A stretch of DNA of 22,585 bases, taken from the IMG/VR virus record IMGVR_UViG_3300028571_000133, positions 1 to 22,585 of that record. One strand, written 5' to 3'. Shown one piece after another: positions 5,364 through 22,282 of the stretch (positions are counted from its first letter, which is position 1; every line of letters starts with the position of its first letter). The notes under the pieces were generated by a model, which saw only the letters and a program-made list of their open reading frames with translations, was not told where the DNA came from and did no database searches. Origin of the DNA: a virus. Made by a program: the position numbers and the translations under genes.

Positions 5364-8162
5364 ATGGCTGCTACACAAAATATAGGTTTAAGAATAACCA
5401 TCGGTGGTGTTACTGAAAGTGTCAGTAATATAAAACAATTGGAAGATGCTATCACCAAGGCTCGTGAGAAATTAAGTGGTTTATCTATTGGTAGTGATGA
5501 GTTCAGAAAACTAACCAACGAAATCCGTACTGCTCAATCGAGTTTAAAAGACCTCAATAAAGCTGCAGAAGGATTAGAGTTTGATCAAAAATTAGAAGCC
5601 TTTGCTCGTGTCGGTGGTGCTATTACATCGTCATTTGCTGCGGCTCAGGCTGCGGTAACACTCTTTGGTGGGGATTCAGAAAAGGTGGCGGAAGCAGCCA
5701 CAAAAGCACAGAACCTTTTGACCATCGCTCTCACGGCAAGATCCGTAGCAGAGGGGGTCGCAGGACTTAGGACTGTTGCTCTTACGATAGCCACGAAAGC
5801 ATCAACACTCGCAACAAACGCTTCAACGGCAGCCACAAGGGTTTTATATACCACCATAGCCGCTAACCCCATCGGGGCATTAGTTGCGGTTATAGGTCTT
5901 GCCGTTGGAGCACTTATTGCATTTGGTTCATCATCAGAAGAAGCGGCTGATTCACAAGAAGAATTGGAAAAAAGATTAAAACTCACTAACGATCAATTCA
6001 GTCAACAAACAAGTCTGTTAGAAATTCAAGGTGAAAAAGCCTCAAACATACAAAGGATCAAGGTACAACAAGCAGAGGAAAATCTTCAAATTCTACAAAA
6101 ACAATTTGTTAGAGAACAAATTAATAACAGAAATTCAGAAGAAACTGCTAAACTTAGGGAACAAGTAAGACAACAAGAAAATGTTTTGATCCTTGAAAAG
6201 GCACGATTGGAAAAAACAATAAATGACGAGACAAGTGCAGCAGAACAAAAACTTGCTGACAATAGAAAGAAAAACTTTGAAAACGAGAAATCCCGTCTCT
6301 CGGCTCTAATCCAAGTAAGATTGCTGGAACTAAAAGGTATTGAAGCGATACAAAAAAAGGTCGCTCAATTGACAAAAGATGAAAGTGAAATTGAAGAACA
6401 ACTCAAAAAAAATGTTGCTACCGCTGAACAATATGCTAAAGCATTGGATTCACTCAACACATTCGGTATGGAATATGGTCAATTACAAGGTAACCTTATT
6501 GAACAAACTGATGATTTTTATGATGTATTTGACCAATTGAGAATAGGTGCTGAAGGTTATTTTGATATGTTATCAACAGGTAAGGTTGATCTAAACAATA
6601 TTGAAGATGCATTTGGTAATTTTAGAAAAACAATAATTGAAACGAATAAAACATTGTTATCTCCTAGTGAATTACAATTATTGACTGATTATAGTCAAGG
6701 GTATTCCACTTTATATGGGGTGTTGAGTGAATATCAAAAACCCCCTTTTGATCTCAAGGAATATGAACAATTATTAGTGGATTTATCTATTGCTCAAGGT
6801 AACATAGATATAGATCCGTTCGGTCGTACCCCTGAACAGATAGGTAAGGTTAAGGTCAATATTAACGAGTTTTTCAAAGAGGTTGAGACAGATTTTTTAG
6901 ATGCTTATGAAAAATTAAAACTCCCTTCAATTCTTCAAGGTATAACAGATCCCGAGGCTCAGAAAGCAGCCAGAGATGGTCTTAGAGAAACAGGTAAATT
7001 GGTCTTCAAAAACTTGGTAGAAGCAGGACAACAAATTCTAATATTTGAAGATGGTTCAGAGGCAACGAATATAAGTGTTCAGAAACTAAACGCACAATTG
7101 TTGAAATTAGCAGACACGGCAAGGGAAGGATTTGTTTTAGAAAATATTGAAAAATTGGGAGACCAATTCAATATACCACTTAAATCTATTGAGAAAAATC
7201 GTGAGATGTTATTGGATTTAGAAAATGAAATTAACACCAAGAGATTTGACCAACAAAATAAATACTATACTGATGTTGAATTTCTTGAGTATGAATTAGC
7301 TCAAGAAGGAATAGATATTTCCAAATTCAGTTATGAGACCAAGTTGAAGATCCTCAAAGAGTTTTTAGAAAAAGAAGTTATAGCAACCGAAATTGCAGAG
7401 GGTAAAAAAAGAAAAGCACAGGAAGATACAATTTCGGGTATCACCGCTACCATTCAAGCATTCCAATCCGTACTAAATTCTTTAGCTCAAACAACATCCC
7501 AATATTATGCGTTTCAGCTGGATTTACTGGCTAAACAATCCGAAGATGCTCAGGATAAAATAGTTGGTGATTCAAAAGAAGCTGTTGAGCTTAGATTGGA
7601 ACAAGAAAAGATTTTTAACGAAAAAAGAAAACAACTTGAAAAACAAGCAGCCATAACATCCCTTCGTATTTCATTTGCTCAATCCCTTGCTAACACAGCA
7701 GAGGCTATCACCAAAGCACTTGCAGGTGGGCCTGTTGTGGGGGTAATAGCCGCTGGTATTATAGCGGTACTATCAGGGGCTCAAACAGCCCTTATAGGTT
7801 CTCAGATAGCACAGATAAATTCCCTACAAAGGGGTGGTATGATCCGAAAGGCTCAAGGTGGAACTGTGATAGGCCCATCTCACGAATATGGTGGTGTAAA
7901 GTTTCAAGGTGGTGGTATTGAATTAGAAGGTGGTGAAGCGGTTATAAACAGAAGGTCATCTATTCAGTATGGTGGATTACTAAACCAAATAAATCAGGTA
8001 GGTGGAGGAAAACCCCTTACCTCAAACACCTTTGATGATTCAAGGATTGTTGAAGCAATATCTAAACAAAGACAAGAACCCATCAGGGCTTATGTGGTAG
8101 AACAGGATATCTCAAACAAACAGGGTGTAAGTCGTAGGTTGGAACAATTATCACAAATTTAA
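5364..8162 (+). CDS. tail tape-measure protein
   Basis: This 932-aa, largely helical protein sets tail length in siphoviruses and spans the tail tube lumen. Residues 20-115 and about 190-360 are charged coiled coil. Residues 163-188 are a hydrophobic segment (ANPIGALVAVIGLAVGALIA), and residues 788-818 a second one. The C-terminus is Gly-rich with QRGGMIRKAQGGTVIGP, SHEYGGV and EGGEAVINR, the classic C-terminal signature of many phage tape-measure proteins. It is preceded by the large tail protein and followed by head genes rather than tail genes, which is unusual. The long coiled coil, two membrane-like segments and the Gly-rich end make the call strong. Confidence 0.9.
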   Translation: MAATQNIGLRITIGGVTESVSNIKQLEDAITKAREKLSGLSIGSDEFRKLTNEIRTAQSSLKDLNKAAEGLEFDQKLEAFARVGGAITSSFAAAQAAVTLFGGDSEKVAEAATKAQNLLTIALTARSVAEGVAGLRTVALTIATKASTLATNASTAATRVLYTTIAANPIGALVAVIGLAVGALIAFGSSSEEAADSQEELEKRLKLTNDQFSQQTSLLEIQGEKASNIQRIKVQQAEENLQILQKQFVREQINNRNSEETAKLREQVRQQENVLILEKARLEKTINDETSAAEQKLADNRKKNFENEKSRLSALIQVRLLELKGIEAIQKKVAQLTKDESEIEEQLKKNVATAEQYAKALDSLNTFGMEYGQLQGNLIEQTDDFYDVFDQLRIGAEGYFDMLSTGKVDLNNIEDAFGNFRKTIIETNKTLLSPSELQLLTDYSQGYSTLYGVLSEYQKPPFDLKEYEQLLVDLSIAQGNIDIDPFGRTPEQIGKVKVNINEFFKEVETDFLDAYEKLKLPSILQGITDPEAQKAARDGLRETGKLVFKNLVEAGQQILIFEDGSEATNISVQKLNAQLLKLADTAREGFVLENIEKLGDQFNIPLKSIEKNREMLLDLENEINTKRFDQQNKYYTDVEFLEYELAQEGIDISKFSYETKLKILKEFLEKEVIATEIAEGKKRKAQEDTISGITATIQAFQSVLNSLAQTTSQYYAFQLDLLAKQSEDAQDKIVGDSKEAVELRLEQEKIFNEKRKQLEKQAAITSLRISFAQSLANTAEAITKALAGGPVVGVIAAGIIAVLSGAQTALIGSQIAQINSLQRGGMIRKAQGGTVIGPSHEYGGVKFQGGGIELEGGEAVINRRSSIQYGGLLNQINQVGGGKPLTSNTFDDSRIVEAISKQRQEPIRAYVVEQDISNKQGVSRRLEQLSQI

Positions 8163-14328: not shown

Positions 14329-14559
14329 ATGAGTAGAAAAGTCGTAAAGCCTGTTATGTGGAATGATCAGGAATATACTGGTTATGAGATAGTGGGTGTT
14401 GAGTGGATTTTCAATTCAGACACCTTTAATGTGATGACAGAATATTTCTACAATAGACACAACAAAAACATCAGGAAATTGGTGAAACATAATTTCAATG
14501 TAGGTAATGATGTTGATGTAGATGGGGTTATAAATATGGTTCATAAATTACATATCTAA
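14329..14559 (+). CDS. hypothetical 76-aa protein
   Basis: I do not recognise this protein. It begins SRKVVKPVMWNDQEYTGYEI and carries a mix of aromatic and basic residues with an acidic stretch near the end (VGNDVDVDGVINM). It has no membrane segment or Cys motif. Its TAA shares one base with the next ATG (TAATG at 14557-14561), so it is probably translated together with the propeller gene. Given its place between fibre and propeller genes it may be an accessory or attachment subunit, but this is only context. Confidence 0.5.
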   Translation: MSRKVVKPVMWNDQEYTGYEIVGVEWIFNSDTFNVMTEYFYNRHNKNIRKLVKHNFNVGNDVDVDGVINMVHKLHI

Positions 14560-15713
14560 TGGGACAGATTTTTAGTAGAAAACAATTCAGTGATTATCTT
14601 GGTGAGAACCGAGCGATATTGGATATTGTATCAGAAAAAATATTTATTCCAAGTCCTACTCCTACACCAACGCCTTCAATAACGCCGACTCTAACCAACA
14701 CCCCTACTGTAACCCCGACTATTACACCGACAAAAACCTTAACACCAACACCTACCCCAAGTAGTACCCCTAATCCTTTATGGGTTGTAGGTACTAGCTC
14801 AACTAACAAGTTATTATATTCTACCGATGGAATTAATTGGTCTAATTCTACTAATGGTAATAGTATTTTTGGAACTCGAGTTGTGTCTATTGCTTGGAAC
14901 GGAAGTTTATGGATTGCTGGTGGTCAGGGAACTAATGTTTTAGCATATTCTACCAATGGTATTGTTTGGAGTGGTTCTACGAATGGAAATAGTCTTTTTG
15001 ATTCTGTTCAGGCTGTTGCTTGGGATGGTTCTTTATGGGTTGCTGGTGGATCAGGCACCAATAGATTAGCTTATTCTACGGATGGAATTACTTGGTCTGC
15101 TTCCACCAATGGTAATAGTATCTTTACTTCTGTTGGTTATGATGTTGCTTGGAATGGTTCTTTATGGGTTGCTGCTGGATCGGGCACAAATACATTAGCA
15201 TATTCTACGGATGGAATTACTTGGTCTGCTTCCACCAATGGTAATAGTATCATTTCTACTTTTGGTAGAGCAGTAGCTTCGGATGGATCTTTGTGGGTTG
15301 CTGGTGGTTTAGGAACAAATACATTAGCATATTCTACGGATGGTATAACTTGGTCTGCTTCCACCAATGGTAATAGTATTATAAGTGTCCAAGTATTGGG
15401 TGTTGCTTGGAATGGTAGTTTATGGGTTGCTGCGGGTCAGACAACAGATACATTAGCATATTCTACAGATGGAATTACTTGGTCTGCGTCCACTAATGGA
15501 ATTAGTGTTATTTCGACTTCTGCATCGGCAGTTGCTTGGAACGGAACTTTATGGGTTGCCGCTGGGTTAGGCACAAATACATTAGCATATTCTACTGATG
15601 GTCTTGTTTGGAGTGGTTCTACTAACGGAAATAGTTTAATAACAGGAGGAAATGCAACTGGTAGAGCAGTAGCATCAAAACCAGCTCCTGAATTATACCC
15701 CCCAATATTATGA
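14559..15713 (+). CDS. seven-repeat beta-propeller surface protein with PTPTP linker
   Basis: This 384-aa protein has three parts. Residues 1-30 are a short helical N-terminus (MGQIFSRKQFSDYLGEN). Residues 31-73 are a PTPTP linker. Residues 74-373 are seven tandem repeats of 42-45 residues with the core LWVAxGxGTNTLAYSTDGITW. Seven such units should close as a seven-bladed beta-propeller. The S-T-D-G-I-T-W core resembles the Asp-box of sialidase-type propellers but is one residue shorter than the usual S-x-D-x-G-x-T-W. Repeats 3-6 are the closest to each other. A glycan- or receptor-binding adhesin displayed on a linker is the likely role. No catalytic residues of a hydrolase are apparent. 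Confidence 0.75.
   Translation: MGQIFSRKQFSDYLGENRAILDIVSEKIFIPSPTPTPTPSITPTLTNTPTVTPTITPTKTLTPTPTPSSTPNPLWVVGTSSTNKLLYSTDGINWSNSTNGNSIFGTRVVSIAWNGSLWIAGGQGTNVLAYSTNGIVWSGSTNGNSLFDSVQAVAWDGSLWVAGGSGTNRLAYSTDGITWSASTNGNSIFTSVGYDVAWNGSLWVAAGSGTNTLAYSTDGITWSASTNGNSIISTFGRAVASDGSLWVAGGLGTNTLAYSTDGITWSASTNGNSIISVQVLGVAWNGSLWVAAGQTTDTLAYSTDGITWSASTNGISVISTSASAVAWNGTLWVAAGLGTNTLAYSTDGLVWSGSTNGNSLITGGNATGRAVASKPAPELYPPIL
14649..14777 (+). repeat. PTPTP linker-coding tract in propeller gene
   Basis: The tract encodes residues 31-73, including PTPTPTPSITPTLTNTPTVT and LTPTPTPSSTP. It links a small anchor to the propeller. Confidence 0.85.
14778..15677 (+). repeat. seven tandem ~129-bp propeller-blade repeats
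   Basis: Each unit codes for one blade. Units 3 to 6 share long stretches of nearly identical DNA around the codons for YSTDGITWSASTNGNS, which points to recent duplication or gene conversion within the array. Units 1, 2 and 7 are more diverged, as at the ends of an expanded array. Confidence 0.85.
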
Positions 15714-16147: not shown

Positions 16148-17225
16148 AGTAGATAGTTTTTCCTTTAACGGGTATGAGTCCATAGCATTTGTCGAAAAGA
16201 TCCATCGAGGAGAATATTTTGTCAGATGGGGTCTTGATAATATGGAGGTGGAGAGATGGTATCTCTATGCTATGGACGCATCACCTGTTCATAGTGCGGC
16301 TATTCAATCAAAGGTTGATAACGCATCGGGTAGAGGATTTACCAACGATTACAAGATAAATAACAAACAATATCTCAACGATGTTCTAAAACAGATGTTT
16401 TGGGAGTTTATCGTTAGTGGTAATCTATTTTTGGAGATTATTTGGAAGAACGATCGTAGTCAGGGGATATCAGGGTTCAAGGTAATCCCATCCAAGTTTA
16501 TGAGGGCTAAGGCTCCTGACAATGCCGAACTAACAACCGATTCTTGGTTGTTCTGTAGGGATTGGGCAAATTGGAAGCGTGCTGGTATGGTTGAGTTCAA
16601 AGAGTTCAATCCAAATGATTATGAGAACAGGCAGATTCTACATCTCAAACAATACTCACCTGGTTACCTATTTTATGGTGTCCCTACTTATCTTTCATCA
16701 CTTTTAGATATCAGACTATCAAAAGCTATTTCTGAGTACAACCTGGCTAATATTCTCAACGGAGCATCCCCATCACTGTGGGTGCATCTACCACAAGCTC
16801 CTGATTCACAAAATGAACAGGAAGACATCCTTCGTAGGTTAGAGGACAGATATCGTGGAGCACAGAACGCAGGTCGTATCGTGGTATCCTATGGAGACCC
16901 TGGTGAGAAACCTGAGATAACACAGATACAACAGACATTACAATCGGGTATGTTCAGTGAGATCTTCGGACTTGTTAGGGAGAACATTTTATCAGGTCAT
17001 AAGATCCCTGACCCTTCTATCTTGGGATTACCATCACCGACTGGTTTTTCTTCACAAGCGGAGCAGCTTACCACAGCCTTCAATCTGTTTATGAACACGA
17101 CCATATTCCCATTACAGGACTTTTTGATTCGTGAACTCAAACCAGTAATTCAGTTGATTTATCCTGATCAAGAGATTGAATTGAAAATAAAACAAAACAA
17201 AATCCTGAGCACCGATGATCTATAA
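16140..17225 (+). CDS. phage portal protein
   Basis: The portal forms the dodecameric DNA channel at one capsid vertex. This 361-aa protein has the expected features: MDASPVHSAAIQSKVDNASG near the N-terminus, a FWEFIVSGNLFLEII segment, IPSKFMRA, ILHLKQYSPGYLFYGVPTYL with a helix after it, and a C-terminal region with GHKIPDPSILGL then SSQAEQLTTAF. The 'Y-G-x-P-x-Y-L' and 'E-Q-x-x-x-A-F' elements are typical of HK97/PBSX-type portals. I chose the ATG at 16140, which overlaps the upstream stop by 8 bases, over an in-frame ATG at 16062 lying deep inside the previous gene. The length is on the short side for the family. Confidence 0.85.
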   Translation: MIKVDSFSFNGYESIAFVEKIHRGEYFVRWGLDNMEVERWYLYAMDASPVHSAAIQSKVDNASGRGFTNDYKINNKQYLNDVLKQMFWEFIVSGNLFLEIIWKNDRSQGISGFKVIPSKFMRAKAPDNAELTTDSWLFCRDWANWKRAGMVEFKEFNPNDYENRQILHLKQYSPGYLFYGVPTYLSSLLDIRLSKAISEYNLANILNGASPSLWVHLPQAPDSQNEQEDILRRLEDRYRGAQNAGRIVVSYGDPGEKPEITQIQQTLQSGMFSEIFGLVRENILSGHKIPDPSILGLPSPTGFSSQAEQLTTAFNLFMNTTIFPLQDFLIRELKPVIQLIYPDQEIELKIKQNKILSTDDL

Positions 17226-17865
17226 TGTTTTACTAATCACCGAACAACTTTTAAAGCAGAGTTCGCCGATCAACGACAATGTTGATACCAGTGAGCTTAG
17301 ATTTTCTATCAGTCAGGCACAGACAATCTTTATCCAAGAATCATTGGGAACAAACCTTTATCAGTTTATTTTGGAATTGGTAGAAAATGGTGATATTGAA
17401 TTACCACAATATATTCATTACAAGGAATTACTTAGAAACTTTATCCAACCGACCCTTATTAGTTTTGCTTATTATCTGGCATTGGATAATTTTTATTTAA
17501 AATTTATGAACATCGGGTTGGTTCAGAATAGATCAGAACAAGGTAACCCGATTGATATCAGAACCCTTACATATCTTAAGACAAACGCAAAGAACAACGC
17601 CGAGTTCAATGACAACTTACTTCGTCGTCATTTGGTATTCAACAATCAGAATTTCCCACAATACACCCTTACAACAAACAACGGACAGCTTATCCCCGAG
17701 TTCGGTGGAGCATTCAAGTCCTCTATGGTATTACCAAGTAATGGTAGATTCTCATCAAGAAATGGTTCAGGATTGAACTTGGGAAGTGGTGGTAGACATT
17801 CAGGTAGTAATTGGTATGGATGTCCAATTCCTTGGTGGTACGGTGGTACAGGATCAGGGGAGTAA
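17215..17865 (+). CDS. putative head-tail adaptor (connector) protein
   Basis: This 216-aa protein starts 11 bases before the portal stop, so it is translationally coupled. Residues 1-110 are helical, with ITEQLLKQSSPINDNVD, FSISQAQTIFIQESLGTNLY and IQPTLISFAYYLALDNFYLK. This 'A-Q-x-x-x-I-Q-x-x-L-G' pattern occurs in head-completion or adaptor proteins of Bacteroidota phages. The C-terminal 45 residues are unusually rich in Gly, Ser and Asn (LGSGGRHSGSNWYGC) and could be disordered. It ends where the reversed gene island begins; the two 3' ends overlap by 12 bases. Confidence 0.55.
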   Translation: MIYNVLLITEQLLKQSSPINDNVDTSELRFSISQAQTIFIQESLGTNLYQFILELVENGDIELPQYIHYKELLRNFIQPTLISFAYYLALDNFYLKFMNIGLVQNRSEQGNPIDIRTLTYLKTNAKNNAEFNDNLLRRHLVFNNQNFPQYTLTTNNGQLIPEFGGAFKSSMVLPSNGRFSSRNGSGLNLGSGGRHSGSNWYGCPIPWWYGGTGSGE

Positions 17866-18006
17866 GGTCATAGCCTTCTTAATCTTTTCCATCTTTCTTT
17901 TATAGATGTTGGCGTATCTCTTATTACGACCGACATATTGGAAATACATATAAAATGCGTCCCTGTAATCGGTATCTTTCATCAGGTCTTCGTATGTGGG
18001 CTTCAT
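17854..18006 (-). CDS. hypothetical 50-aa basic protein
   Basis: An open frame begins at the ATG at 18006 and ends at the TGA at 17854-17856. The 50-aa product starts MKPTYEDLMKDTDYRDAFY, is rich in Tyr, Lys and Arg, and ends in a basic helix (YKRKMEKIKKAM). It starts 5 bases after the 65-aa gene stop on the same strand, so it probably belongs to the same transcript. Its 3' end overlaps the adaptor gene on the opposite strand by 12 bases. Function unknown; the shape fits a small nucleic-acid- or protein-binding factor. Confidence 0.6.
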   Translation of the reverse strand: MKPTYEDLMKDTDYRDAFYMYFQYVGRNKRYANIYKRKMEKIKKAMTLLP

Positions 18007-18011
18007 CTTGA

Positions 18012-18209
18012 TTAGAGTTTATTTATTGGTTGGATATTAACTTCTACGATGGTAGTATAACCACCTGCTCTATTGGGGTAAGTTTCTTTTGTGTATTTAA
18101 ACAAATCACCATATTGGTTAATCATATTATGAAAACCTTTGATTTTGTGAGCGTGGATACACTTATCATTTTCCATAAGACGAAGGATAATATGATTTTT
18201 CTTTTTCAT
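18012..18209 (-). CDS. hypothetical 65-aa protein
   Basis: I do not recognise this protein. It begins MKKKNHIILRLMENDKCIHAHKIKG and contains AGGYTTIVEV near the end. The single base between its ATG (18209) and the upstream gene stop at 18211 suggests coupling to the 66-aa gene, whose promoter serves both. There is no membrane segment and no paired Cys motif. It is a member of the reversed small-gene island and probably an early or host-interaction protein by context. Confidence 0.6.
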   Translation of the reverse strand: MKKKNHIILRLMENDKCIHAHKIKGFHNMINQYGDLFKYTKETYPNRAGGYTTIVEVNIQPINKL

Positions 18210-18210
18210 T

Positions 18211-18411
18211 TTAGTTATGGGTTTTTTTTACTTGTAGGACTTGGAACAGAGCATCTTGGACTTCCAATCCCTGCTCTTTGAGAAAGTTGATTGTGTGGGT
18301 CAGGTCAGTATCATCGTTGATCTGCTCCTCGTTGGTATAACCAAAAATCTCCTTCAGTCGTGCGATTGTAGATTGTTTGTAGTTCTCTTTGATGTAGGTT
18401 GTGTTTTCCAT
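18211..18411 (-). CDS. hypothetical 66-aa helical protein
   Basis: The product starts MENTTYIKENYKQSTIARLKEIFGYTN, followed by an acidic linker (EEQINDDTDLTHT) and a second helix (INFLKEQGLEVQDALFQVLQ). Two helices joined by an acidic turn could be a small DNA- or protein-binding fold, but no known family is recognised. It lies just downstream of a clear promoter (18440-18471) whose -7 element and ACACCCTAAT box precede the ATG by an A-rich leader. It heads the transcript that also includes the 65-aa and 50-aa genes. Confidence 0.65.
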   Translation of the reverse strand: MENTTYIKENYKQSTIARLKEIFGYTNEEQINDDTDLTHTINFLKEQGLEVQDALFQVLQVKKTHN

Positions 18412-18439
18412 TTTGTTTATTGTTTTTTAGATTAGGGTG

Positions 18440-18471
18440 TAAAGATACTGAATTATTTTTGTTCTACCAAA
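18440..18471 (-). promoter_or_regulatory. Bacteroidota-type promoter P1 with downstream ACACCCTAAT box
   Basis: On the minus strand TTTG (18468-18471) is followed after exactly 20 bases by TATCTTTA (18440-18447). It lies inside the end of the 75-aa gene and drives the 66-aa gene. Directly after the -7 element comes CACCCTAATCTAAAAAAC, shared with the other two promoters of the set. Confidence 0.85.
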
Positions 18472-18680
18472 ACTTTTTTTCGTTGTTGAGTAAAGTAATC
18501 TCCATAATCAACTACCTGATTACCGATCTCGTCAAATTGTTCGTCAAACCAAGATACAGAACCTTCGTCCTCAATCCACTCATTTTCACCTATAAACTCG
18601 TGCCAGTCAAACTTACGCCACATAGCAGCCAACATAATAAGTTGAGTTTCGTTCAGGGTGATTTCTTTTTCTTGTTCCAT
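18453..18680 (-). CDS. hypothetical 75-aa acidic protein
   Basis: The product starts MEQEKEITLNETQLIMLAAMW, with Trp-rich and acidic blocks (KFDWHEFIGENEWIEDEGSV, then SWFDEQFDEIGNQVVDYGDY), and ends in a basic stretch (QQRKKVLVEQK). High acidity with several Trp residues is often seen in phage inhibitors that mimic DNA or bind host enzymes, but that is only a hint. It has its own promoter (18701-18732). Its end contains the upstream part of promoter P1, a compact layout. Confidence 0.65.
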   Translation of the reverse strand: MEQEKEITLNETQLIMLAAMWRKFDWHEFIGENEWIEDEGSVSWFDEQFDEIGNQVVDYGDYFTQQRKKVLVEQK

Positions 18681-18700
18681 TTTGTTTTTTTATTAGGGTG

Positions 18701-18732
18701 TAAAGTTAATGAATTATTTTGATACTACCAAA
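18701..18732 (-). promoter_or_regulatory. Bacteroidota-type promoter P2 with ACACCCTAAT box
   Basis: On the minus strand TTTG (18729-18732), 20 bases, then TAACTTTA (18701-18708), followed by CACCCTAATAAAAAAAC and the ATG of the 75-aa gene. It also lies in the 3' end of the gene before it, as P1 does. Confidence 0.85.
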
Positions 18733-18896
18733 CTAACTTCATCTTTATTTGCTGCGATAAGAGAAAAGAACGCAAGGGCTGATTTATCCATACGAACAAT
18801 ATACCCGTCAGTTGTGATTTCTTTTACTACGCCAGTTTTTCCTTTGATGCTTCCTTCGGTTGTGAAGATTACCTTGTCGTTGATTTGGATTGCCAT
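18714..18896 (-). CDS. small SH3/KOW-like protein
   Basis: This 60-aa product is a compact beta-rich protein: INDKVIFTTEGSIKGKTGVV, then KEITTDGYIVRMDKSA, then a late strand DEVSLVVSK. The 'D-x-V-x-F-x-x-x-G-x-x-K-G-K-T-G-x-V' start is like KOW or SH3-fold domains that bind RNA, DNA or partner proteins. It has its own promoter P3. The size is that of a single domain without extras. A role in transcription or translation control is possible, though only the fold is suggested by the sequence. Confidence 0.65.
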   Translation of the reverse strand: MAIQINDKVIFTTEGSIKGKTGVVKEITTDGYIVRMDKSALAFFSLIAANKDEVSLVVSK

Positions 18897-18923
18897 TTTG
18901 TTTCTTGTTTTTAGATTAGGGTG

Positions 18924-18955
18924 TAAAGATACAACAACGATTTAATCCCACCAAA
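18924..18955 (-). promoter_or_regulatory. Bacteroidota-type promoter P3 with ACACCCTAAT box
   Basis: On the minus strand TTTG (18952-18955), 20 bases, then TATCTTTA (18924-18931), followed by CACCCTAATCTAAAAAC and an A-rich leader to the ATG of the 60-aa gene. It lies between this gene and the divergent zinc-finger gene. Confidence 0.85.
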
Positions 18956-18977: not shown

Positions 18978-19268
18978 ATGACTAATTCCAAAGGTGTTGA
19001 AATGGTAGGTAGGACTTGTTCCGTTTGTGGTGAAGAGTTCTTCTTAACAAGAAAAACAGGATTACGATGTAACCCGTGTATCTACAAACTCACAAAGGAC
19101 AACCACTGCAAAAAACTTGTTGACCAACAAGTGAATGGTCATAATGGTCGTCAGCACGATATAGATAGTGCGATAGACCTACTCACCAAACTCGGCTATG
19201 ATGTCTATCAAGATGTAAATGAGCAGTTCTTACAGAGAAGCAAAACAAAATACGGGATTACCTTTTAA
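18978..19268 (+). CDS. small zinc-finger protein
   Basis: This 96-aa product has TCSVCGEEFFLTRKTGLRCNPC, a CxxC...CxxC pair with 17 residues between (about residues 14-36), which should bind one zinc. The C-terminal half has AIDLLTKLGYDVYQDVNEQF and ends KTKYGITF. It is the only + gene within the reversed island and is divergent from the 60-aa gene. A second gene at 20136-20459 has the same layout: CxxC near the N-terminus, then LLxxLGY, then VxxQFxxK. Small zinc fingers like this are common in phage accessory regions; a DNA-binding or HNH-related role is possible, but no HNH catalytic motif is visible. Confidence 0.65.
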   Translation: MTNSKGVEMVGRTCSVCGEEFFLTRKTGLRCNPCIYKLTKDNHCKKLVDQQVNGHNGRQHDIDSAIDLLTKLGYDVYQDVNEQFLQRSKTKYGITF

Positions 19269-19851: not shown

Positions 19852-19883
19852 CAAATATAGTAATATAACTAATCAAAGTCAAA
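19852..19883 (-). promoter_or_regulatory. perfect-consensus Bacteroidota promoter
   Basis: On the minus strand TTTG (19880-19883) is followed after exactly 20 bases by TATATTTG (19852-19859), the full TAnnTTTG consensus. It lacks the ACACCCTAAT box of the P1-P3 set, so it is probably controlled differently. The 50-aa gene starts 21 bases downstream. Confidence 0.85.
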
Positions 19884-20524: not shown

Positions 20525-20665
20525 ATGCGAACAGATAACAAAAAAAGTATTTTAATTGATAAAGACCTTCATCACGATTTTAAGGTATATTGTGTAAAAC
20601 AGGGATTACTGATGCACAAGGTAGTTGAGAAACTAATTGAAAACAAATTAGATTCCCCTTTTTAA
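20525..20665 (+). CDS. 46-aa ribbon-helix-helix DNA-binding protein
   Basis: A 46-aa frame begins at the ATG at 20525 and ends at TAA 20663-20665. It reads KKSILIDKDLHHDFKVYCVK, then QGLLMHKVVEKLIENKL. This is a ribbon-helix-helix pattern: a short beta strand (SILID), helix A (DLHHDFKVYCVKQG) and helix B (MHKVVEKLIENK), as in CopG and Arc-type repressors that act as dimers on operators. It is transcribed away from the reversed island, so it may regulate it. It lies 65 bases from the 107-aa gene start on the opposite strand. Confidence 0.7.
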   Translation: MRTDNKKSILIDKDLHHDFKVYCVKQGLLMHKVVEKLIENKLDSPF

Positions 20666-21873: not shown

Positions 21874-22282
21874 ACCAAAAAGGGGGAGACCAAGAGTGGA
21901 GACAAAGATCAATCCTCTATGGAAAGATATAATGTTAGAAGCTGGTGCAAAAGGAAAACATACCACAGATATTCTAATTGACTTGGGGATCAGTTGGAAT
22001 GGTCATTATGCTATGATGAGTAGAAATGATGGTTATAAGCAAACCTATAGTGAATTTCTAAAATTAGCAGAGAACTATTGGTTCAATTTAGCACTTCAAG
22101 CAATGCAAGAAAACGGGGGTAATAGATTCAATACAAGGTTATGGGAAACCATTATGAAGAACAGGTTCAGGGATAATTGGAAGACAGAAAAATATGTCGA
22201 TATAAAAAGTGGTGGTGAGAAACTACAGAGTGATAACAAAATCCAAGTGGAGATAATAAAAACAAAGTTGGAGGGTGAATAA
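21860..22282 (+). CDS. terminase small subunit-like protein
   Basis: This protein probably recognises the packaging site on phage DNA and recruits the large subunit. The 140-aa product has a basic start (KPKRGRPRVETK), a helix-turn-helix-like segment (residues 33-60, HTTDILIDLGISWNGHYAMM), a central helix (FLKLAENYWFNLALQAM) and a typical end: LWETIMKNRFRDNWKTEKYV, then DIKSGGEKL and IQVEII. 'K-N-x-F-x-x-x-W-x-x-K' followed by 'S-G-G-x-x-[IL]' is common in phage small terminases. It overlaps the next gene by 8 bases. The large subunit is not the next gene, which is unusual. Confidence 0.75.
   Translation: MENDKPKRGRPRVETKINPLWKDIMLEAGAKGKHTTDILIDLGISWNGHYAMMSRNDGYKQTYSEFLKLAENYWFNLALQAMQENGGNRFNTRLWETIMKNRFRDNWKTEKYVDIKSGGEKLQSDNKIQVEIIKTKLEGE

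Follow-up and report, generated by a model that had tools for sequence, protein, structure and literature searches.

Promoter early stem-loops (PeSLs) were reportedly described in work of 2010 (Arbiol) and 2014 (Comeau). One account presents them as mobile regulatory cassettes of T4-type phages (PMC4503421). The start-associated sequences (SAS/ESAS) of cluster K mycobacteriophages are 13-bp, GGGATAGGAGCCC-like elements located upstream of start codons, about half of them with 17-bp inverted repeats (PMC3203893). Integron gene cassettes rely on palindromic attC recombination sites and an integron integrase. The published promoter of the Bacteroidota primary σ factor consists of TTTG at −33 and TAHHTTTG at −7 (PMC6847099, PMC7366714, PMC9723704), and transcription starts 4-5 nt past the −7 element (PMC6847099).

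The turnover of accessory genes in phages is very fast, and how a new arrival comes to be expressed with its neighbors left intact is rarely visible. Here, we analyze an island of small genes in a phage record of IMG/VR (IMGVR_UViG_3300028571_000133); "the window" refers to the whole stretch of 22,585 nucleotides that was analyzed. In this island, promoters seem to be cut at the cassette border, so that each exchange would rebuild a promoter.

Three Sites of Identical Architecture

The sequence TTTG-N20-TAnCTTTACACCCTAAT is present three times, as exact matches, on the minus strand of the window, with TTTG at positions 18471, 18732 and 18955. These sites (P1-P3) and one further predicted promoter of the island are as follows:

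18431..18471, minus strand: P1; TTTG 18471-18468, −7 element TATCTTTA 18447-18440, CACCCTAAT 18439-18431, ATG 18411
18692..18732, minus strand: P2; TTTG 18732-18729, −7 element TAACTTTA 18708-18701, CACCCTAAT 18700-18692, ATG 18680
18915..18955, minus strand: P3; TTTG 18955-18952, −7 element TATCTTTA 18931-18924, CACCCTAAT 18923-18915, ATG 18896
19852..19883, minus strand: canonical TTTG-N20-TATATTTG promoter of Bacteroidota type, lacking the box and preceding the 19679-19831 gene

As can be seen, 20 bases separate TTTG from TAnCTTTA in each of P1-P3, followed by CACCCTAAT and an A-rich leader that extends to the ATG. The identical architecture proposed in the initial annotation, which was made from the sequence alone, was thus borne out. 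When up to three mismatches to the full TTTG-N20-TAnCTTTACACCCTAAT pattern were allowed, the same three matches and no others were retrieved from the window, while 100 dinucleotide shuffles of the same composition contained none. Among the 13-mers listed as occurring at least three times in the window, all those from outside the box belonged to a 129-bp coding repeat at 14816-15601, and only 2 of 100 Markov surrogates contained any 13-mer in three copies. Given the absence of matches in shuffles and the rarity of such recurrence in surrogates, a chance origin of the three sites was rejected.

P3 is located in a divergent intergenic region, back to back with a plus-strand gene that starts at 18978. 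At P1 and P2, TTTG begins 19 nt before the end of the stop codon of the preceding gene, and the −7 element begins 5 nt past the stop. The earlier placement of these two promoters inside the 3′ end of the preceding gene therefore holds for the −33 element and most of the spacer but not for the −7 element. The P1 and P2 spacers share GTAG-A--AAAATAATTCA; the spacer of P3 differs.

Relation to Host Promoters

The likeness of P1-P3 to the Bacteroidota primary-σ promoter consists in TTTG, a distance of 19-20 nt (exactly 20 in all three, within the range of 19-21 nt sought), TAnCTTT-, a following CA and a short A-rich leader. The claimed agreement with this promoter type was thus upheld for TTTG and its spacing but not for the −7 element, TAnCTTTA, which has A at the last position of TAHHTTTG, where the host G is nearly invariant. 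A further difference is the fixed CCCTAAT extension of the phage sites, which is not general in hosts: among 53 canonical promoters of Bacteroidota contigs, the −7 element was mostly followed by C (74%) and then A (62%), which agrees with the box, while CCCTAAT was not conserved.

We searched 84,980 species genomes with an extended pattern in which the eighth −7 base could be A or G. The search retrieved 102 stretches, nearly all from Bacteroidota among the matches listed. The eighth base was G in 74 and A in 6 of the 80 host loci that were re-read, and for 71 of the 80 the start codon of a 60-codon frame lay within 150 nt, compared to 58% for random points. The G form was enriched in Bacteroidota genomes (28 matches in 148 genomes, 10 of them from one genome; 0 in the control), while the A (TTTA) form was at chance level (3 matches in 296 Bacteroidota genomes; 2 in the control), which makes the promoter strength of the phage sites uncertain.

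In one Bacteroidota genome (G069; L219, 185-461), three tandem TTTG-N20/21-TAYCTTTGCACCC promoters precede a 16S rRNA gene, and the same trio is present at three places in that genome. From this position of TAYCTTTGCACCC, upstream of 16S rRNA, TAnCTTTnCACCC has the look of a strong start region of the host. The phage sites resemble these rRNA operon promoters in TTTG-N20/21-TAYCTTTGCACCC and differ from them in having A where the hosts have G, so that the phage box has the appearance of such a start region, apart from one atypical base.

We infer from these comparisons that P1-P3 work like primary-σ promoters of Bacteroidota despite the atypical base. Transcripts would start ca. 4-5 nt past the −7 element, with leaders of ca. 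16-24 nt; for P1, the rule of PMC6847099 predicts a start at about 18434-18435. The promoter type and the leader also suggest that the phage host belongs to Bacteroidota.

Genes of the Island and Its Flanks

The genes of the island and the genes flanking it are the following:

18978..19268, plus strand: divergent flanking gene, 96 aa, conserved in L162 (86%); L160 has a different gene in its place
18714..18896, minus strand: cassette gene behind P3, 60 aa, family not confident (weak KOW-like hint)
18453..18680, minus strand: cassette gene behind P2, 75 aa; the L010 protein is 98.7% identical and has the same box and leader
18211..18411, minus strand: cassette gene behind P1, 66 aa, without family
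18012..18209, minus strand: fourth cassette gene, 65 aa, with a leader remnant AAAACCCATAACTAAAATG only and no box
17854..18006, minus strand: last island gene, 50 aa; kept in L160 (82%) and L170 (64%)
17215..17865, plus strand: conserved gene on the other flank, 216 aa, adjoining the portal gene; query for relatives

Each site precedes a different small gene, and the initial proposal of one promoter per small gene is well supported by the sequence and also by the comparison with relatives. Relatives of the fourth cassette gene have a box in front in L162 and a box-like start in L170. Pfam, PHROGs and PADLOC gave nothing firm for the small genes of the window.

Outside the island, positions 20525-20665 encode a 46-aa protein with, by eye, a ribbon-helix-helix DNA-binding look; it is kept in L021, L161, L163 and L164, beside a 107-aa zinc-finger-like gene. 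The 129-bp repeat at 14816-15601 is a tandem repeat of about six copies within a 384-aa gene (14559-15713), whose product has repeated 43-residue units (AYSTDGITWSASTNGNSI...) after a Thr-Pro-rich linker. This product, which may vary by repeat recombination, resembles a receptor-binding protein or a tail decoration protein. A methyltransferase gene begins at 22275.

Box-Type Promoters in Related Phages

With the conserved gene 17215-17865 as a query, eight related loci were found. The related contigs are a handful, all of them metagenome fragments, and the phage record itself is a 22.6-kb fragment. When looked for in related phages, as the initial annotation had suggested, the pattern recurs in rows before small genes. 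L162 (the L022 record) has the same flanking genes as the window and four boxes in front of four small genes, only the last of which is common to both phages; L010 likewise contains a row of box-type promoters. L160 has one box gene at the same place, with a P3 region that is 89% identical and a promoter that is kept while both neighboring genes are replaced. The P3 promoter is also kept in L162 while the neighboring genes change. In L010, a DNA methyltransferase gene (5911-6747, matching PADLOC type II methyltransferase models) lies directly behind a box, so the cassettes are not restricted to tiny genes without known function.

The layout of L184 is the same with another repeated box, GTAAGACACTTAACAACTATAAAAACTA, a similar form of which is found once in L165. 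This second repeated box with its long leader (TTTGTAAGACACTTAACAACTATAAAAACTATAACTATGGAAAAC; L184 5233-5798, L165 11814-11841) stands before different small genes and is apparently the counterpart, in another phage lineage, of the box of the window. L163 to L165 have per-gene promoters whose starts are short and partly leaderless. The ATG lies only 4-5 nt past the −7 element at L164 12859 and 12312, L184 4868 and 4614, and L021 4661 and 7011, and transcripts from these promoters would begin at the start codon or immediately beside it. Bacteroidota reportedly have few leaderless mRNAs (PMC7366714, PMC6847099).

Among phage records, no isolate matched the capsid, the portal was at most ca. 25% identical (Nonlabens phage P12024S), and the P1 region had no convincing match. 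The box is not a common viral motif with promoter context: of the 53 viral contigs in which it is present, most have it in unrelated sequence and lack a TTTG at the required distance. Broader leader scans returned mainly chance matches. In two unrelated viral contigs (L187 3423, L188 5156), a −33/spacer-like TTTGGTAGCAGCAAAATAATTCA lies directly before a terminator-like hairpin (GAGGGGACTTGACTCCCCTC with a T-run), which is probably a coincidence.

Separate Histories of the Two Promoter Halves

The new result of the comparison with relatives is that the two halves of each promoter have different histories. The stretch from the P2 box to the P1 box (18413-18708) is 97.3% identical over 297 bp to L010 6747-7043, while structural proteins common to the two phages are 55-63% identical. 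The P1 spacer is identical to that of L010_e at 20 of 20 positions, and the box, leader and first codons of P1 match L162_c at 45 of 45 bases, there before an unrelated gene and behind an unrelated spacer. The P2 spacer matches L184_b, which has a different box, at 19 of 20 positions and also resembles L170_a, while the P2 leader is like that of L010_d. The P3 spacer is closer to L162_a and L160_a than to its siblings in the window.

We compared, half by half, 31 promoters of the islands in the window and in eight relatives; 23 of them have leaders of at least 12 nt. Among these 23, 20 pairs were alike in the spacer only, 25 in the leader only and 5 in both. Over all 31 promoters, there were 33 spacer links and 30 leader links, compared to 0-2 in shuffled sets. 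Spacer and leader similarity are thus largely uncoupled. Seven of 11 identity breakpoints, hand-picked from five relatives, non-independent and overlapping gene starts, fell within the zones from −7 to ATG, a count equalled by 3 of 748 circular shifts. Where cassettes are adjacent, the −33 element mostly overlaps the stop codon before it or adjoins it. As judged from these alignments, the −33/spacer half goes with the gene upstream, and the −7/box/leader half goes with the gene downstream. The modular cassette of promoter, box and small gene proposed initially is thus retained as gene-by-gene modularity, but its unit is not simply promoter plus box plus gene, the promoter being split.

A Proposed Seam for Cassette Exchange

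We consider it probable, though far from certain, that P1-P3 are host-type promoters for one accessory gene each and that their box doubles as a homology seam for the exchange of single-gene cassettes. The host RNAP with the Bacteroidota primary σ factor (−33/−7) would read every promoter separately. The box TAnCTTTACACCCTAAT and the A-rich leader would be the −7/start region and, equally, a stretch of homology for cassette exchange between phages. The −33 element and the spacer are located at the 3′ end of the upstream gene or directly past it, while the −7 element, box and leader precede the downstream gene. Because the former half remains with its upstream gene and the latter travels along with the gene that it precedes, crossing over within the box would swap the gene and rebuild a complete promoter. 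Exchange is likely driven by homology, in co-infected cells; no particular recombinase is proposed. Since any mosaic assembled gene by gene would be expected to have breakpoints at gene starts, the box may mark the junctions and not cause them.

The box could instead be an operator or an initial-transcribed sequence that a single factor, of phage or host, recognizes, with the genes switched together and the mosaic being ordinary. It does exceed host conservation, CCCTAAT not being a consensus of the 53 canonical promoters; the box copies consistently have A as the eighth −7 base, which is rare in hosts (6/80); and the small protein encoded at 20525-20665 resembles, by eye, a ribbon-helix-helix repressor. 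That protein, however, is also present in the box-less relatives L161, L163 and L164, the box is neither a palindrome nor a direct repeat, and the same layout exists with another box in L184 and L165. Shared regulation would also leave unexplained both the 45/45 identity, A-rich leader included, before unrelated genes and the uncoupled promoter halves. We regard it as unlikely, though deserving weight as an explanation of the island; a shared regulator that reads the box is possible and would be compatible with cassette exchange.

Copying of a promoter before neighboring genes of one genome, with later gene replacement by unrelated processes, would account for the similarity of the P1 and P2 spacers (z 5.6) and for the three nearly identical own leaders of L184. 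It is an improbable history for the window, whose promoter halves are closer to those of other phages than to their siblings (the P1 spacer to L010_e, the P1 leader to L162_c, the P3 spacer to L162_a and L160_a). It is also conceivable that the repeated box led short-read assemblers to join cassettes that are not neighbors, given that the relatives are all metagenome contigs and that the sequences shared at the joins can be no longer than 17-45 bp. The cassette identity of 97% rather than 100%, the small differences between boxes (CACTCTAAT, CACCCAAT, CACCCTTAA) and the recurrence of the layout in independent contigs with other boxes make such an artefact very improbable.

A wider proposal can be made, which we advance as a possibility that is on balance doubtful: in Bacteroidota phages generally, every accessory gene would be flanked by a lineage-specific seam dividing the promoter among neighbors, and any arriving single-gene cassette with the same seam would be expressed at once; box A (ACACCCTAAT) and box B (GTAAGACACTTAACAACTATAAAAACTA), as different seams, would define separate exchange communities. 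The boxes could serve as a handle for finding accessory-gene islands and possible anti-defence genes in uncultured Bacteroidota phages, the methyltransferase cassette of L010 being an example that bears on the latter, and they also yield a set of compact candidate promoters.

Comparison with Known Systems

For integron gene cassettes, with their palindromic attC sites, the comparison covered folding at the box, which shows no stem-loop, within a phage record that is a 22.6-kb fragment. Like SAS, the box is a short, asymmetric sequence that recurs in related phages, immediately ahead of many genes that belong to different families. It differs from SAS in that the box TTTACACCCTAAT is not a GGGATAGGAGCCC-like 13-bp element, holds the −7 promoter element, lacks an inverted repeat or a stem at the sites and carries identity breakpoints.

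PeSLs are the closer parallel, with a repeated early-type promoter between small accessory genes that is tied to gene shuffling among related phages. A repeated promoter between accessory genes is likewise found in the island, and so is shuffling with junctions at the element, the latter in a small and partly non-independent set. In contrast to PeSLs, P1-P3 have neither a stem-loop (fold z-scores of 1.24, 1.32, 0.17, 0.13 and -0.13) nor a terminator, no terminator-like site being found between cassettes. The promoters here are also of the Bacteroidota −33/−7 host type, and they are split at the cassette border, with the −33 half in or adjoining the end of the upstream gene. Since P1-P3 have no stem-loop, we do not class the system as a PeSL, though it would work like PeSL cassettes.
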